From contig JAUIFX010000018.1 in assembly GCA_030429865.1 (NCBI GenBank), positions 1-40,645 on the forward strand: a stretch of 40,645 nt of DNA, written 5' to 3'. The stretch's first letter is position 1, and every line of letters begins with the position of its first letter. The position numbers and the translations under genes were made by a program. The notes beneath the pieces were generated by a model. It saw only the letters and a list, made by a program, of their open reading frames with translations, did no database searches and was not told the DNA's origin. This document shows positions 2,601 through 21,289 of the stretch, in pieces. This DNA is from Gammaproteobacteria bacterium. GTDB lineage: Bacteria > Pseudomonadota > Gammaproteobacteria > Ga0077536.

Positions 2601-3260
2601 ATGTCCGAACTCGAGATTCTCGTGCCCGTACCGGCCACGCGCACACCGGCGCATCCGCTCGCGCCCCGGCTCGCCGCGCTCGGCGGGCGCCGCATCGGCT
2701 GGCTCGACAACCGCAAGGCGAACGCTGCCGCCCTCCTCGGTGGTGTTGCCGATAGCCTCGCCGCCGAGGGCCACGCGTTCGCGCGCGAGCTGGCGCAGAA
2801 GAACGCGACCGCGCCCGCACCGGAGGGCGTGATGGCGCACCTGCGCACCTGTGACGCGGTGGTGCTGGCGATCGCCGACTGAGGCTCCTGTACGTCGTGG
2901 AGTGTCCATGACGCGATTGCCCTCGAGCGCGCCGGCATCCCGACCGCGCTGTTGTGCAGTGACGAGTTCGGCCCGCTCGCGCGTGCCGAGGCGCAGGTGC
3001 TCGGTCTCGCCGCGCTGCCGCTCGTGGCGGTGCCGCACCCGCTGGCCGGTAACGACGCCGGCCTGGTCGCGGCCAAGGCGCGCGGTATCGCGGCCGAGGT
3101 GGCGTTCGCGCTGTGTGCTCGCCCTGCCGAGCTGGAAGCACGCTACACCGGCCAGTTCGCTGCCCTGACCGAGCGCCGGCTCGAGGGCGGCGCGGTGTGC
3201 GTCGACGACGTCTGTGCCATCGACCCGGCGGTGGGCGCGGTGCGGGGGCCGGTGTCTTGA
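2601..3260 (+). CDS. UGSC family selenoprotein (in-frame TGA read as selenocysteine, Sec94)
   Basis: The frame starts at ATG 2601, preceded by ggggagagg at a normal distance, and meets TGA at 2880-2882. It continues in the same frame with G-S-C-T-S-W to a real stop at 3258-3260. Read as selenocysteine the product has 219 residues with U94-G95-S96-C97, the hallmark of the UGSC (seleno)protein family. Both sides of the TGA are coherent protein: residues 84-93 run into D-U-G-S-C and then H-D-A-I-A-L-E-R-A-G-I-P. A SECIS-like hairpin lies at 2893-2913. The U-x-x-C followed by an E-x-A-G-I-P segment resembles, from memory, the selenocysteine region of glycine/proline reductase B subunits; that relation is inference. 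Two further cysteines (V-C-V-D-D-V-C) lie near the C-terminus. Reaction and substrate are unknown; a redox or reductive cleavage role is likely. The next gene overlaps the stop codon. Confidence 0.9.
2880..2882 (+). other. Selenocysteine codon (TGA) of the UGSC protein
   Basis: TGA at codon 94 interrupts an otherwise continuous frame and sits exactly where the family motif U/C-G-S-C requires Sec or Cys. It is followed by ggc tcc tgt (G-S-C). Recoding needs SelA, SelB, SelC tRNA and SelD, none of which is encoded in this window. Confidence 0.88.
2893..2913 (+). promoter_or_regulatory. Bacterial SECIS-like stem-loop for Sec94
   Basis: Positions 2893-2901 pair with 2905-2913 (nine pairs, one of them G-U), closing a three-base loop g-t-g at 2902-2904. 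The loop begins 19 nt after the TGA. Established bSECIS rules ask for a stem-loop within the coding region with a G in the first two bases of the apical loop, about 16-37 nt from the UGA; both hold here. SelB would bind this element to deliver Sec-tRNA. Confidence 0.75.
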
Positions 3261-4342
3261 GTACGACGATGCGCGTCGATGCGGCGGCGCTCGACGACGA
3301 GTTCGAGGCGCGCGGTTGGAGCGACGGTCTGCCGGTCGTCGCGCCGACGCGCGCGCGCGTCGATGCCATGCTGGCCTGCTGCGACCGGCCGCGCGACGCC
3401 GAACTCGGCACCATGCCGCCGCGCCACGGCATCGTGACCCCGGAGATCCTGGCGGTCAACGCCGTCATGGCGGGCTGCCGGCCGGCCTATTTCCCCGTCG
3501 TACTGGCGGCGGTGGAAGCGATGCTCGACCCCGCGTTCAATCTCTTCGCCGTGCAGGCGACGACACACCCCTGCGCGCCCTGCGTCATCGTCAACGGCCC
3601 GATTGCCGCCGAGCTCGGCATCAACGGCCGCTACGGCGCGTTCGGCCCCGGGGTGCGCGCGAATGCCACCATCGGGCGCGCGGTGCGCCTGGTCCTGCTC
3701 AACGTCGGCGGTGCCGCGCCCGGCATCCTCGACCGCTCGACGCAGGGCCAGCCGGCCAAGTACGCCTACTGCGTCGCCGAGAACGAGGCCGAGAGCCCGT
3801 GGCCGCCCCTGCACGTCGCACGCGGCTTCGACGCCGCGACCTCGACCGTCACGGTGACCGCGGCCGAGGGGCCGCACAACATCAACGACCACGTGAGCAC
3901 CGACGCGCACGGTATCCTCGCCACGCTGCGCGGCGCGCTGACCGACATGGGCGCGAACAACGCCTACCTCTACGGTCAGCCGACGATTGCCTTCGGTCCC
4001 GAGCACGCCGCCATCCTCGCCGCCGGCGGCTACGATCGTGCCGCACTCGGCCGTTTCGTGTTCGAGCACGTCCGCCTGCCGCGCGAGCTGTGGGCGCAGG
4101 GCGGCATGGCCGGGATGTTCGAGGATCGCTTCCCGGACGCCGAGTGGAAGCCGATCATCGCGTGCCCGCAAGACCTGCTGGTCATCGTCGTCGGTGGCTT
4201 CGGGCGGCATTCCTGCTGGCTGCCGACTTTCGGTGACACCACGCGCGCCGTGACCCGCGCCATCGCCCGTGCCGACGGCACGCCGCTGGCGAGCGTCGCC
4301 GAGCTGGCCGGGAGGGGCGCACGGCCGCCGTCCACCAGCTGA
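3257..4342 (+). CDS. UGSC-associated protein of unknown function with CxxC motif
   Basis: This 361-residue protein is translationally coupled to the selenoprotein: TTG 3257 overlaps the TGA at 3258-3260, and a ggggg tract lies 9 nt upstream. An alternative ATG at 3269 has no suitable ribosome site. The N-terminus carries a G-W-S-D-G-L-P-V-V-A-P-T-R segment (residues 20-32), a pattern I associate with proteins encoded next to UGSC selenoproteins. Residues 104-109 are H-P-C-A-P-C, a C-x-x-C that could exchange electrons with the Sec/Cys pair of its neighbour. A Cys pair also occurs at 41-42. No signal peptide or membrane segment is visible. I infer a two-subunit cytoplasmic enzyme with the UGSC protein; the reaction is not known to me. 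Confidence 0.8.
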   Translation: MSTTMRVDAAALDDEFEARGWSDGLPVVAPTRARVDAMLACCDRPRDAELGTMPPRHGIVTPEILAVNAVMAGCRPAYFPVVLAAVEAMLDPAFNLFAVQATTHPCAPCVIVNGPIAAELGINGRYGAFGPGVRANATIGRAVRLVLLNVGGAAPGILDRSTQGQPAKYAYCVAENEAESPWPPLHVARGFDAATSTVTVTAAEGPHNINDHVSTDAHGILATLRGALTDMGANNAYLYGQPTIAFGPEHAAILAAGGYDRAALGRFVFEHVRLPRELWAQGGMAGMFEDRFPDAEWKPIIACPQDLLVIVVGGFGRHSCWLPTFGDTTRAVTRAIARADGTPLASVAELAGRGARPPSTS

Positions 4343-4369: not shown

Positions 4370-5092
4370 TCACCCGGTCAGCGTCAGCAGGATGTCCGCG
4401 TACCAGGCGCAATTGAGGCCGAGGGCCTCGTCGAGGGCGAAGTCGCGCGTGCCGACGTCGAGTCGCGAGGAGTGCACGCCGAGCAGTTTCCAGGGCAGCC
4501 CTTTCGGTGCGCCGCGCGCCGCGCGCATCACCACCGGCGCGCCGCTCGAGCCGCGATGCGTGCGGCCATCGGTGAGGAACAGGCCCTCGCCCTGGAAACG
4601 CAGGCCCCAGGCCGAGGCGAGCACCGCGTGCCGGGCGACCGGGATGTGGTGCAGGGTGTCGTGGAAGCCGAGGGGAAAGCCGATCACGACCAGTGCGCTG
4701 CCGACTTCCACGCGCTCGCGCGCGCTCATCAGGTTGGCCGGCGTGAACGCTTCGTAGACGGCGGTTTCCGGCAGCGCGTCGCGACTGATCTCGAGCGCGG
4801 CGACGTCGATGCCGCCGGCCGCATCCATGCCCTGGCGCCACAGGCTCTTGCCGTCCCGGTACAGCGGCATCGAGAAGCCGGTCGACTCGGCGAGATTGTC
4901 GGCATCCGTGTGCAGCTCGACTTCGAGGCGATCGGGCAGGTGACCGCTGGACTCGTCACGCAGCACGTGCCCGCTGGTGACGACGAACAGCCTCTCGTCG
5001 CGCGCGAAGAAAAAGCTGCTCGCGTTGGTCAACGGCTGCGCGCCGGCGAAGGTGCACACGCGCGCCGTGGTCAGCAAAATGGCATCGATCAT
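4370..5092 (-). CDS. Trypsin-like serine protease without signal peptide
   Basis: The 240-residue product has a complete chymotrypsin-fold catalytic triad: His42 in V-T-S-G-H-V-L, Asp96 in G-I-D-V-A-A-L, and Ser173 in G-S-S-G-A-P-V. It fits the trypsin-like peptidase family PF13365 but lacks a PDZ domain, so it is shorter than HtrA/DegP proteins. The chosen start (ATG 5092) leaves no signal peptide, which suggests a cytoplasmic enzyme; the frame extends to 5155 but that part is basic and uncharacteristic. It may cleave a specific partner or act as a protein-binding pseudo-housekeeping protease. It is convergent with the UGSC partner (27-nt gap) and divergent from the YegP-type gene. No substrate is evident nearby. 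Confidence 0.85.
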   Translation of the reverse strand: MIDAILLTTARVCTFAGAQPLTNASSFFFARDERLFVVTSGHVLRDESSGHLPDRLEVELHTDADNLAESTGFSMPLYRDGKSLWRQGMDAAGGIDVAALEISRDALPETAVYEAFTPANLMSARERVEVGSALVVIGFPLGFHDTLHHIPVARHAVLASAWGLRFQGEGLFLTDGRTHRGSSGAPVVMRAARGAPKGLPWKLLGVHSSRLDVGTRDFALDEALGLNCAWYADILLTLTG

Positions 5093-5194
5093 GTCGAATC
5101 TCGCGTTCCGGGGCGCCCGCCCGGTAGGTACCGTGGTAGATTCTTGCCTGGGCATGGCCCCATTTCATTCACCGGAAACAACAAGGACAAGGAC

Positions 5195-5533
5195 ATGGCT
5201 GGATGGTTCGAACTGAGCAAGAGTTCCGATGGGCAGGTGCGCTTCGTGCTCAAGGCGGGCAACGCGGAGACCATACTCACGAGTGAACTGTACAAGACGC
5301 GCGCGGCGGCCGAGAACGGCATTGCGTCGGTGCAGAAGAACTGCGGCAGCGACGAGCGCTATGAACTGAAGGAGGCGGCCAACGGCAAGTTCTTCTTCAA
5401 TCTCAAGGCGGCCAACCACCAGGTCATCGGAACGAGCCAGATGTACGCGACCACGCAGGCGCGTGATGGCGGTATCGCATCGGTGAAGACCAACGGTGCC
5501 AGCGCGACGGTGAAGGACAAGACCGAGGGCTGA
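5195..5533 (+). CDS. YegP-type DUF1508 protein, two tandem repeats
   Basis: The 112-residue protein consists of two ~50-residue DUF1508 (PF07411) repeats. Each begins with a W/Y-F-E-L-K-like strand followed by an F-x-L-K-A-x-N segment, and then an S-x-x-Y-x-T-x-x-x-x-x-x-G-I-x-S-V-x-x-N helix. The repeats cover residues ~4-52 and ~56-104. E. coli YegP has the same two-repeat build. The function is unknown; the fold is a small alpha/beta domain that often occurs as a dimer. ATG 5195 follows aaggacaagg. The gene is monocistronic: it is divergent from the protease and convergent with mscS. Confidence 0.9.
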   Translation: MAGWFELSKSSDGQVRFVLKAGNAETILTSELYKTRAAAENGIASVQKNCGSDERYELKEAANGKFFFNLKAANHQVIGTSQMYATTQARDGGIASVKTNGASATVKDKTEG

Positions 5534-8209: not shown

Positions 8210-8243
8210 GCGTGTCGGCAACGCGCGGCGTGCGCCGACGCTC
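8208..8243. terminator. Hairpin at the SDR/LLM-2 convergent junction
   Basis: Positions 8208-8219 pair with 8234-8243 with a two-base bulge on the left arm. The hairpin overlaps both stop codons, so it is placed to end transcripts from both directions. It is GC-rich without a T tract. Confidence 0.45.
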
Positions 8244-9063
8244 AGGCGAGCTGGGCGCGGATCGCCTGCAGGCGTGTGACGAGGGCGTCGAACTCGTGCT
8301 GCGTAGCGTAGCGCGAAGCCTGGACGTAGTGCGTCGCGCCAAGTTCGGCGAGCCGGCCGAGGCGCTCGACGGCCTCGTCGTCGCTGGCCGGCAGGGTGCC
8401 CATGAGGACCACTTCGGGGCAGTGCCGCCCGGCCGCGGCGGCGAGTTCGCCGAGGCGCGCGATGCGCGGGGCGAGCTGCTCGAGGTCGAGTCCGATCGGC
8501 AGCCAGCCGTCGCCTGCCCGTACCGCGCGCGCGAGCGCCGCCTCGCTCATGCCGCCGACGTAGATCGGCGGCCGCGGCGGCCGCGGGCGGAACAGGAAAT
8601 CCTGGCCGTGAGCGCTGACGACGTCATCGCTGCCCGCATCGAAGCACTGGCGCAGGAAATCGAGCGTGTCATCGGTCAGCCGCCCGCGCCGCGCGAAGTC
8701 GATGCCCAGCGCGCGAAACTCGGCAGCCATCCAGCCGGCGGCGACGCCGAGGTGCAGGCGTCCGTCACACAGCTCCTGGATGCTCGCGACCCACTTCGCG
8801 GTCGGCAGGGCGGGACGGTAGGGCAGCACCAGCACCGCGACGCCGAGGCCGATGCGATGCGTCGCGGCGGCAAGGAAGGCGAGCGCGGCGAGCGGGTCGA
8901 TCCAGCGTCCGTCCGAACCCTCGGCGTCGTCAGGCGGGATTGCGAGGTGGTCGACGACCCACGCATGATCGAGGCCGGCGGCCTCTGCCGTCTCCGCCGA
9001 CTGGCGGATGGCGCTCGCGGTCGCGGTCGTACCCATGTTGCGAATCGCCGTGCCTATCTTCAT
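8242..9063 (-). CDS. LLM class oxidoreductase, TIGR03619-like (LLM-2)
   Basis: A 273-residue luciferase-like enzyme of the short type often annotated as F420-dependent (TIGR03619). Recognisable are V-V-D-H-L at residues ~35-40 and V-L-V-L-P-Y-R-P (residues ~77-84). Next come D-G-R-L-H-L-G-V-A-A-G-W (about 100-111), which forms part of the flavin/F420 pocket, and the P-P-I-Y-V-G-G-M-S-E motif near residue 170. Cofactor choice between FMN and F420 is not decidable from the sequence. The enzyme probably works as a monooxygenase or hydride-transfer reductase on a small organic molecule. It is divergent (143 nt) from the spermidine synthase-like/LLM-3 pair. Confidence 0.87.
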   Translation of the reverse strand: MKIGTAIRNMGTTATASAIRQSAETAEAAGLDHAWVVDHLAIPPDDAEGSDGRWIDPLAALAFLAAATHRIGLGVAVLVLPYRPALPTAKWVASIQELCDGRLHLGVAAGWMAAEFRALGIDFARRGRLTDDTLDFLRQCFDAGSDDVVSAHGQDFLFRPRPPRPPIYVGGMSEAALARAVRAGDGWLPIGLDLEQLAPRIARLGELAAAAGRHCPEVVLMGTLPASDDEAVERLGRLAELGATHYVQASRYATQHEFDALVTRLQAIRAQLA

Positions 9064-9206: not shown

Positions 9207-9944
9207 ATGAGCCGGTTGTTCGAAGAGCTCGATTACCAGTCGACGCCCATCGGCGCGGTCAGCCTGCGCCGCCGGCGCGAGCTCACCCTCGACGTCGACG
9301 TCTACGAGATCAAGCTCGACGACGAGTTCCTCATGTCGAGCCTGTACACCGCCTCCGAGGTCGCGCTGGCCGAGCATGCCCTGGCGGCGCTCGGCGCCGG
9401 GCGCGAGACGGCCCTCGACGTCGTCGTCGGTGGCCTCGGCCTCGGCTACACCGCGCAGGCGGTGCTTGGCCATGCGGGCCTCGGCGAGCTGCTCGTCGTC
9501 GAGCTGCTGGCGCCGGTGATCGACTGGCACCGCCGCGGGCTCGTGCCGATCGGCCGCGCCCTGGCCGAAGATCCGCGTTGCCGCCTCGTCGAAGCGGATT
9601 TCTTCGCCTGTGCGGCCTCCGCGGCGGGCTTCGATCCGGCGCGGCACGGCCGCCGGTTCGACGCCATCCTGCTCGATATCGATCACTCGCCCGAGCACTG
9701 GCTGGACCCCCGAAGCGAAGCTTTCTATGGCACGCACGGCTTGCGCGCGCTGGGCCGTCGCCTGCGGCCGGGCGGGGTGTTCGGCCTGTGGTCCAACACC
9801 CCGCCCGACGATGTCTTCGCGGCACGGCTGGCGGCCGTGTTCGCAAGCGCCTGGGTCGAACCGGTGCGCTTTCGCGACGCGCTGCACGACCGCGACTGGG
9901 TCCAGGCGGTATACCTCGCGCGCACGGACGCGAAGGGGACGTGA
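9207..9944 (+). CDS. Spermidine synthase-like SAM-binding protein
   Basis: The 245-residue protein has the Rossmann methyltransferase core seen in polyamine aminopropyltransferases. A glycine-rich V-V-G-G-L-G-L-G-Y-T loop (residues ~71-80) is followed by an acidic residue ending strand 2 (V-V-E-L-L), and D-A-I-L-L-D-I-D-H-S-P marks the region where spermidine synthases carry the catalytic Asp. The N-terminal beta barrel of true aminopropyltransferases is short or absent, so I do not assign polyamine synthesis. It is more likely a fused-domain relative using SAM or decarboxylated SAM on an unknown substrate. Its stop overlaps the LLM-3 start (ATGA at 9942-9946), so the two are translationally coupled and probably act together. 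Confidence 0.75.
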   Translation: MSRLFEELDYQSTPIGAVSLRRRRELTLDVDVYEIKLDDEFLMSSLYTASEVALAEHALAALGAGRETALDVVVGGLGLGYTAQAVLGHAGLGELLVVELLAPVIDWHRRGLVPIGRALAEDPRCRLVEADFFACAASAAGFDPARHGRRFDAILLDIDHSPEHWLDPRSEAFYGTHGLRALGRRLRPGGVFGLWSNTPPDDVFAARLAAVFASAWVEPVRFRDALHDRDWVQAVYLARTDAKGT

Positions 9945-10840
9945 TGAAGATCCGTTTCGCCGTGACGCCGCCGGCAGCCGCACTCGACGGCGCGGTGTTC
10001 GCTGACTACCTCGAGCGCGTCGAGGCGCTCGGCTTCGACACCCTGTGGTTGTCGGACGTGCCGCTCGGGCCGCTCGGCGATCCGCTGCTGTCGCTGACCT
10101 GGGCCGCGGCGCGCACGAAGCGTCTCAAGCTCGGTGTCAACGTCGTGCCGCTGGGGCGCAACCCGTTCCTGCTCGCGCGCCAGCTCGCGCAACTCGATCG
10201 TCTCGCTGGCGGCCGTTTGCTGCTGTCCTTCGTACCCGGGCTGGGTCAGCCTGCCGAACGCGCCGCGCTCGGCTACGCCGGTGGCGATCGCGGCCGGGCG
10301 CTGGAATCGATCATCGAACTGCAGCGGCGCTGGTGGGCCGGAGAGACCGTCACCGCGACGTGCGAGGGCTGCACTTACGACGCCGTCGCACTGGCGCCAC
10401 TGCCGTTACAGCAGCCGCTCGAGATCTGGCTCGGCGGCAAGGGGCCGGCCGCGCTGCGCCGCGTGGCGCGTGCCGGCGACGGCTGGCTGACCTCGGCGGT
10501 GACGCCGGCCGAGGCGCGCGCCGGGCGCCGCACCATTGCCGCGGAGCTCGCACGCTGCGCGCGCCACATCGACGAGGAGCACTACGGCATCAGCATCCCG
10601 GTGTGCGCGACGGAGCCCGGCGAAGCGCTGCTCGCGCCGTTGCGCGCGCGCCGCGCGGATCGCGACCTGACCGACATCGTCGCCGTCGGTGCGGCGCAGC
10701 TGCGCGCGCTGGTCGAGGCCCACCTCGACGCCGGCATCAGCAAGTTCGTCCTGCGTCCGCTCGGCATGCTCGGGAGCGCGACGGCCTGGCGCGAGGATCT
10801 CGACTGGATGGCCGACGCGGTGCTGCCGCTGCAGCGCTGA
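9944..10840 (+). CDS. LLM class flavin-dependent oxidoreductase (LLM-3)
   Basis: A 298-residue luciferase-like enzyme. Typical features are the start M-K-I-R-F-A-V, the F-D-T-L-W-L-S-D-V strand (residues ~27-35), and L-G-V-N-V-V-P-L-G-R-N-P (~62-73). G-G-R-L-L-L-S-F-V-P-G-L-G lines the cofactor pocket, and I-W-L-G-G-K-G-P-A-A-L matches the usual C-terminal phosphate-binding segment. FMN or F420 dependence is undetermined. The start codon ATG overlaps the stop of the spermidine synthase-like gene by one base, which argues for coupled expression. Residues ~210-245 contain two cysteines and several acidic residues with no assigned role. It is convergent with the HCCA isomerase-like gene. Confidence 0.87.
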   Translation: MKIRFAVTPPAAALDGAVFADYLERVEALGFDTLWLSDVPLGPLGDPLLSLTWAAARTKRLKLGVNVVPLGRNPFLLARQLAQLDRLAGGRLLLSFVPGLGQPAERAALGYAGGDRGRALESIIELQRRWWAGETVTATCEGCTYDAVALAPLPLQQPLEIWLGGKGPAALRRVARAGDGWLTSAVTPAEARAGRRTIAAELARCARHIDEEHYGISIPVCATEPGEALLAPLRARRADRDLTDIVAVGAAQLRALVEAHLDAGISKFVLRPLGMLGSATAWREDLDWMADAVLPLQR

Positions 10841-19142: not shown

Positions 19143-19276
19143 TTCGCGCCACCGTCGCCGTGGCCAGGCGCGCCCGGGGCGTGCTCCGCCGCGTCGCCGG
19201 CCCTGCCCGATCCGGTGTACTCTGGCTGTCCGACGATCGCCAGGCCCTGCGCACCGAGCCGCGTCCTTCCCACCCC

Positions 19277-21289
19277 ATGGCCACTTCCCGCAAGCCGCCA
19301 CCCCGACGCGACGAGCCACCCGCGACGCCCGGCCTCGTGCCCAACCTCGACCAGGGACTCGGCTACCTGCTGCGCGTGCCCGCGCACATCCGGCGCATGA
19401 CCAGCCCCATGCTCAGGGTGCGTCATTTCGTGCAGTTCATGCTCGAACGCCTGATCCTGCGCGGCGCGATCGCGCGGCTGCTGGTCATCGCCGCTGCCAT
19501 CGCCCTGGTCGCCGCGACCGGGGGCGTGCTCGCCTACCTCCTGACCGGCGCCTTCGATTCGCCGCTCGCCTCGATCTGGTGGGCCTTTCTGCGCATCACC
19601 GATCCGGGCTATCTCGGCGACGACGAGGGCACCTGGCTGCGCGTGATCTCGGTGACGATGACCGTCGGCGGCCTGGTGCTGCTGCTCGGCGCGCTGATCG
19701 CGATCATGACCCAGTGGCTCAACCAGACCATCGAGGAACTCGAACAGGGGTTGTCACCCATCGTGATGAAGCATCACGTGCTGGTTCTCGGCTGGTCGCG
19801 GCGTACGCCCGCCATCGTCGAACAGCTGGTCAGCAGCGAGGGACGCGTGCAGCGCTTTCTCGACACCTTCGGCGGACGGCGCCTGAAGATCGTGATCCTC
19901 GTCGAAGCCATCGGCCCGGCGCTGGTGCAGGAACTCAAGGACCGCCTGGGTCCTTACTGGCGCCCGGGGCAGGTCATCCTGCGCTCGGGCAGCGCGGTGC
20001 GCCTGGAACATCTCGAACGCGTCGATTTCCGCCACGCCGCGGTCGTGGTGCTGGCCGCCGAGGCCACGCGCGGCGGCGACGAGACGGTGATCAAGACCCT
20101 GACCACCGCGGCCACGGCGCCGGTCGGCCCATGGCCGCTGGTGGTGGCGGAGATCCTCGAACCGGATCATCTCACGGCCGGCGTGAAGGCTTACCCGGGG
20201 CCCGCGGAGATCATCCCGACAGGCCTGCTCAGCAGCCGCGCGCTGATGCAGACGGCGCGCTACCCGGGCGTCGGACGCGTGGTCGAGGACCTGTTCGACC
20301 AGGACGGCGTCCAGGTCTTCCTGCACGACACCGTGACGCAGACCGGCATCGCGCTCGCCGACCTGATGTATTGCTTCGATTCGGGTGTGCCGCTCGGCGT
20401 GGTGCGCGCCTCGCCGCGCGAGTTCGTGCCGCTGCTCGCCCCCGGCGCGCGCGTCGAGGCGGGCGATCTCGTGGCCGTGCTCGGCCACGATTTCGAATCG
20501 AGCCGTCCGCGCGGCAACCCGGGACCCGACACCGGCACGCCGCGTCCGCCGCCGCGGCCGCGCGCGGCCGTGCCGCGCCGGCGCATGCTCATCGTCGGCT
20601 GGAACAACACCGTGCCGTCGCTGCTCGCCGAATGCGATGGCTATGCCGAGGAGTTCAGCGCCGTCGACGTCGCTTCGCTGATGCCGGCCGCAGAGCGCGA
20701 ACGCGTGCTCGCGCGCAAGAACATTGCACTGACGCATATCGAGCACCGCCAGCTCGAATGCGACATCACCACCCGCGCCGAACTCGAACGGCTCGAACCG
20801 GCTGCCTACGATGTCATCATGCTCGTGCCGAGCGACTGGCGCGGCAGTGCCGAACAGGCCGACGCGCGCAACCTGCTCGGCTACCTCATGCTCGAAGAAC
20901 TGCTCGCACTCGCACCGCGCCGTCCGCATGTCATCGTCGAAGCCATGGACGAAGCGAGTGCGGCGCTGTTCACCGGGCCCGACGTCGAGTTGATGGTCAC
21001 GCCCAAGCTGCGCAGCCACATCCTCGCCCAGGTCGCGCTGAGGCGCGATCTGAATACCGTGTTCGAGCATCTGCTGGGCGTCGGCGGCGCCGAGATCAGC
21101 CTGCGCGAGAGCGGCCCGTTCGCGGCCGTGGCGGACTTCTACGCGTTGCAGCAGCGTCTCGCGCGCGATGGACAGATCGCACTCGGCGTGCTGCGCGCGG
21201 ATGGCGTGTCGGATCTGAATCCGCCCAAGCGTGCGCCGCTCGCGCTCGCGCCGGACGATCGCGTCGTGGTGCTGACGCTCGCGATCTGA
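19277..21289 (+). CDS. CASTOR/POLLUX-related ion channel protein
   Basis: A 670-residue membrane protein with a cytoplasmic N-terminus, a membrane helix at ~66-90, a pore-loop region (S-I-W-W-A-F-L-R-I-T-D-P-G-Y, residues 99-112) and a second helix at ~122-146. Two RCK-like Rossmann regulatory domains follow: the first from residue ~166 (H-H-V-L-V-L-G-W-S), the second from ~435 (R-R-M-L-I-V-G-W-N). A Pro/Arg-rich linker (~415-435) joins them. This is the build of plant CASTOR/POLLUX channels and their bacterial relatives, distinct from Trk/Ktr systems. Ion specificity cannot be read from the filter region, which differs from the K+ channel T-x-G-Y-G. ATG 19277 starts the conserved part. Confidence 0.87.
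   Translation: MATSRKPPPRRDEPPATPGLVPNLDQGLGYLLRVPAHIRRMTSPMLRVRHFVQFMLERLILRGAIARLLVIAAAIALVAATGGVLAYLLTGAFDSPLASIWWAFLRITDPGYLGDDEGTWLRVISVTMTVGGLVLLLGALIAIMTQWLNQTIEELEQGLSPIVMKHHVLVLGWSRRTPAIVEQLVSSEGRVQRFLDTFGGRRLKIVILVEAIGPALVQELKDRLGPYWRPGQVILRSGSAVRLEHLERVDFRHAAVVVLAAEATRGGDETVIKTLTTAATAPVGPWPLVVAEILEPDHLTAGVKAYPGPAEIIPTGLLSSRALMQTARYPGVGRVVEDLFDQDGVQVFLHDTVTQTGIALADLMYCFDSGVPLGVVRASPREFVPLLAPGARVEAGDLVAVLGHDFESSRPRGNPGPDTGTPRPPPRPRAAVPRRRMLIVGWNNTVPSLLAECDGYAEEFSAVDVASLMPAAERERVLARKNIALTHIEHRQLECDITTRAELERLEPAAYDVIMLVPSDWRGSAEQADARNLLGYLMLEELLALAPRRPHVIVEAMDEASAALFTGPDVELMVTPKLRSHILAQVALRRDLNTVFEHLLGVGGAEISLRESGPFAAVADFYALQQRLARDGQIALGVLRADGVSDLNPPKRAPLALAPDDRVVVLTLAI

Follow-up and report, generated by a model that had tools for sequence, protein, structure and literature searches.

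Positions 2601-3260 of the window (the whole stretch of DNA analysed, 40,645 nucleotides) comprise a single gene of 219 codons on the forward strand, which starts at ATG 2601, continues through an in-frame TGA (2880-2882) into Gly-Ser-Cys, and terminates at a second TGA (3258-3260). The product is an ordinary member of the published UGSC selenoprotein family, not a new type of gene, and comparison with its homologues makes it near certain that the internal TGA is read as selenocysteine (Sec94, the U of U-G-S-C). Beyond the original prediction, which concerned the UGSC gene, the analysis brought to light an accompanying partner gene and a relationship to the D-proline and glycine reductase proteins PrdB and GrdB. 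The literature found on the UGSC family assigns it no function (PMC2398784), and the near-obligate partner together with the PrdB/GrdB link provides a testable two-subunit enzyme hypothesis for the family.

Selenocysteine at the in-frame TGA

Both available family models match the read-through product across the TGA. The Pfam model UGSC (PF24696, cut-off 25 bits) covers residues 5-171 without a break at this codon (163.4 bits, E = 7.3e-48), while the NCBIfam model UGSC_fam (NF041046) gives 128 bits, barely above its equivalog cut-off of 125. The coherent frame from TGA 2880 through G-S-C to 3260, and the family membership, both of which had been claimed from the letters of the DNA, are thus borne out. 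A standard gene caller applied to the frame opening at 2601 halts at 2882 and, as foreseen, yields a protein of only 93 residues (2601-2882); the original prediction therefore correctly rescued a gene that is liable to mis-annotation.

The codon at the Sec column is TGA in 85 of the 88 homologous loci fetched and TGC in the other three; seven of these loci were fetched twice, giving 81 distinct loci, 78 with TGA and three with TGC. The column holds U or C only, and the Cys homologues that were to be sought at residue 94 do exist, in L147, L151 and L152. One of these, L151, contains an extra in-frame TGA and a split match, and may be a broken locus. The residue three positions beyond the Sec column is Cys in all 88 aligned homologues; in the window protein it is Cys97 (codon 2889-2891, forward strand), the second residue of the UxxC motif, so that the U/C-x-x-C pair consists of U94 and C97. 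In the nearest relative, which is 95% identical, 15 of the 18 base changes located after the TGA fall at third codon positions, and the codon changes comprise 14 synonymous and 4 non-synonymous, compared with 7 and 5, respectively, before the TGA. By this comparison the region 3' of the TGA is under purifying selection.

The genome assembly, 291 contigs totalling 4.6 Mb with a completeness of 95.7% and a contamination of 4.6%, contains all of the machinery required by the prediction, namely selA, selB, selD and selC, the last a tRNA-Sec with the anticodon TCA. All four score above their family cut-offs and lie at 19-26 kb on a single contig (C237). Two more UGSC genes, each with one TGA, are present in the same genome (contigs C33 and C126), and 8 of the 38 genomes have selA and selB within the fetched neighbourhood of a UGSC gene.

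Directly 3' of the motif, the computed fold displays a hairpin resembling a bacterial SECIS element (2893-2913, forward strand), in which CGUCGUGGA (2893-2901) and UCCAUGACG (2905-2913) form a 9-bp stem capped by a three-base GUG loop (2902-2904) that starts 19 nt after the TGA. A bacterial SECIS element is a hairpin that immediately follows the UGA and carries a G in its small apical loop (PMC1088965), a description that fits the stem and GUG loop found here. A scan of the window with Rfam returned zero matches above the gathering score. Many Sec-type loci contain a hairpin at the matching position with a small, G-bearing loop; the structure is missing in the Cys-type loci L152 and L147, equivocal in L151, and folds weakly in one subclade (z near 0). 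In an alignment of 25 sequences, 93.5% of the stem cells are paired, and at one pair C-G is swapped for G-C in six sequences. Covariation in the stem is 0.129 compared with 0.061 in shuffled alignments, a value reached by 0 of 500 shuffles and exceeding all slid controls, and a signal to which coding constraint and relatedness can add.

TGA is ordinarily a stop codon, and the alternative to selenocysteine is that TGA 2880-2882 is a true stop, a sequencing error or the mark of a pseudogene, with the downstream frame a relic. The chance of this is close to nil. The same TGA recurs throughout the distinct loci apart from the three that have Cys, the downstream region appears to be under purifying selection and carries the SECIS-like hairpin, and the sel machinery is complete; neither an absence of sel genes nor homologues with a normal stop or a different sequence at this position were found. 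The selenocysteine reading of the TGA is preferred because of the family match across the codon, the sel genes, the restriction of the column to TGA and TGC, and the hairpin.

A partner gene adjoins UGSC

The gene immediately downstream of UGSC (3257-4342, forward strand) encodes a partner protein of 361 amino acids, and its TTG start overlaps the UGSC stop as TTGA. In 80 of the 81 distinct loci, UGSC has a homologue of the partner next to it in the same orientation: the partner follows UGSC in 25 loci, precedes it in 32, and is fused behind it in one frame in 23. In the one remaining locus, L131, a contig end interrupts the sequence. The two families also occur in the same genomes. When genomes were searched independently with the partner profile, the class sample (6 of 369) and the phylum sample (5 of 398) each yielded the very genomes that contain UGSC; within the order the partner was present in 32 of 36 genomes versus 31 for UGSC, the difference being due to one genome with a truncated partner gene at the start of a contig. 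Each UGSC match listed in the order contains one TGA. A metagenome paper from 2008 described UGSC fused to a domain termed 'Unknown_1' as an occasional fusion (PMC2398784), and this domain is probably the partner. No statement of the near-universal pairing was found in the literature.

The partner belongs to a family of ∼315-residue proteins. Neither the window protein alone nor a family of 25 diverse members has a credible match in Pfam, NCBIfam or the PDB, and the predicted structure (pLDDT 42) provides no usable fold. In the family alignment, D, P, A, G, R and E are among the invariant residues and Cys is not, a pattern more suggestive of a role in binding a substrate or cofactor than of thiol chemistry. 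As the family has neither an invariant Cys nor likeness to an NCBIfam model, any GrdE/PrdA-type models in that collection included, a pyruvoyl or thiol role is unsupported. The single UGSC gene of one locus (L149:7618-11647, genome G523) is accompanied by two partner paralogues arranged in tandem, and a thioredoxin-reductase-like flavoprotein is encoded directly upstream; it is possible that the flavoprotein is the reductant and that the paralogues form a heteromeric partner.

Copy number varies considerably, with nine UGSC copies in genome G364 (L138-L145) and 13 in G021 (L128-L137), mostly fused to the partner. Such expansion is unusual for a selenoprotein family, and the presence of up to 13 copies in one genome suggests substrate diversification.

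Genomic neighbourhood

The window genes around UGSC encode three luciferase-like (LLM class) monooxygenases, all within 10 kb (1527-2509 and 8242-9063 on the reverse strand, 9578-10840 on the forward strand), together with an SDR, an EthD protein, a putative cyclase, malate synthase, and DUF1329, acyl-CoA dehydrogenase and thiolase-like proteins. A DUF1508-domain protein is encoded downstream of the partner (4472-5533, forward strand), and a bacterial Castor/Pollux ion-channel-like protein further along (19160-21289, forward strand; PF06241, E = 2e-10). The neighbours that recur in other UGSC loci are CoA-transferase III, amidohydrolases, SDRs, thiolases and PQQ proteins. An LLM-like gene was also observed directly upstream of a UGSC paralogue in L002. 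A conserved wider operon was ruled out, the partner alone being common to all 38 clustered genomes. As the neighbours of the various copies are catabolic enzymes, these data suggest that the UGSC-partner pairs are catabolic, with different copies serving different substrates.

Predicted fold and relation to PrdB and GrdB

The AlphaFold model of UGSC, built from eight sequences, has a pLDDT of 81, rising beyond 90 over most of the stretch from residue 20 to 180. The model displays five strands that alternate with helices in an α/β sandwich, in which Sec94 lies where a helix begins, in the loop that follows strand 3. Flavodoxin-like, response-regulator-like and other Rossmann-like sandwiches are its nearest folds, with middling scores, and no thioredoxin is among the Foldseek or VIA matches listed, although one could lie outside those lists. 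UGSC thus models as a flavodoxin-like α/β domain, and the nearest folds of this model lend no support to the published 'Trx-like' label. Searches of PDB sequences with the UGSC, partner and PrdB-like profiles revealed no credible match.

The NCBIfam models for GrdB, GrdF, GrdH and PrdB match 4-7 of 16 diverse UGSC members weakly, and in the window protein these matches fall at the Sec region; the scores against TIGR01917, TIGR01918 and TIGR04483 are 22, 18 and 12 bits, compared with cut-offs of 602, 65 and 300, respectively. Alignment of the UGSC profile with that of PrdB-like selenoproteins from the same order gave an hhalign probability of 96.2 (E = 2.4e-9) and placed Sec column on Sec column, over about 70 columns and with a PrdB-like profile of six sequences. 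The partner profile, used as a control, returned a probability of 0.1, ruling out the partner as a relative of the PrdB-like proteins. Judged from these profile comparisons, UGSC is a distant relative of the C-terminal, Sec-bearing half of PrdB/GrdB and not a member of that family.

In the window's own genome (G000), the GrdB family (PF07355) is matched twice, at C50:915-1115 and C112:1294-1671. Relatives in the order (L153-L159, L161 and L162) carry TGA at the V-U-x-x-C motif, and these two matches are therefore probably further mis-annotatable PrdB-like selenoproteins.

A proposed two-component selenoenzyme

In the glycine and D-proline reductases, a Sec nucleophile attacks a substrate that the protein complex has polarised. 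Given that UGSC has a homologous Sec domain and a near-obligate second protein, we propose that it and its partner work in a similar manner. During synthesis, SelB would deliver Sec-tRNA(Sec) to UGA 2880, aided by the downstream hairpin. UGSC and the translationally coupled product of 3257-4342 would then act as one enzyme, as the near-invariable adjacency, identical distribution and fusions suggest. The partner would bind and polarise the substrate, and the Sec selenolate would attack it, resulting in reductive cleavage of a carbon-heteroatom bond as in glycine reductase protein B or PrdB; for GrdB, nucleophilic attack by Sec on a substrate that the complex polarises has been described (PMC10838667). 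Cys97 could subsequently resolve the selenenyl-sulfide, with a cellular thiol reductase resetting UGSC. Complex formation, bond cleavage and the catabolic role are what we infer for the pair, and that it constitutes a protein B-like selenoenzyme acting on a catabolic substrate is, in our assessment, an even chance.

Two other roles have to be weighed against this model. Many selenoproteins are antioxidants, and the scattered copies and variable neighbours of UGSC would suit a detoxification or stress enzyme, reducing for example peroxides, metals or electrophiles, rather than a catabolic one. The peroxidase-type TxxU motif is absent, however, catabolic enzymes recur as neighbours, and the high copy number points to diversified substrates, which together make this role unlikely. 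The UxxC motif is also compatible with a general thiol oxidoreductase of thioredoxin-like fold, the partner being its protein substrate, and such a fold for UGSC is a published guess (PMC13188914). This proposal must be regarded as quite improbable: in the predicted structure UxxC follows strand 3 of a five-stranded α/β sandwich, the Foldseek matches listed include no thioredoxin, the UGSC sequence is homologous to PrdB/GrdB, and the partner offers no conserved Cys as a thiol substrate.

Comparison with known systems

The window gene shares with the UGSC family (PF24696/NF041046; the 'UGSC-containing' selenoprotein of the literature) its sequence, the U-G-S-C motif, the predominance of Sec with rare Cys, and the SECIS-like hairpin, and differs from it in no essential respect. 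The two-component selenoenzyme proposed above finds its closest parallel in PrdB and the GrdB/GrdF/GrdH protein B family (TIGR04483, TIGR01917, PF07355), with which UGSC shares a homologous Sec domain and a UxxC motif at the matching place; a second subunit acts, or seems to act, together with the Sec protein in both systems. In contrast to GrdB, UGSC lacks the N-terminal half, its partner bears no likeness to known subunits, and UGSC, found here in Pseudomonadota, scores far below the PrdB/GrdB family cut-offs. The PrdB-like selenoproteins of the same order (L153-L162), the first-listed member of which matches PrdB at 5e-40, have a Sec domain that aligns with UGSC but differ in their V-U-P-x-C motif and longer N-terminal region, and form a separate family. 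It is a tentative proposal, a little short of an even chance, that UGSC and its partner represent a new obligate two-component class, in which a Sec domain of PrdB/GrdB ancestry is combined with an unrelated substrate-activating subunit, and which has expanded in some Gammaproteobacteria to roughly a dozen copies that reduce varied catabolic substrates.
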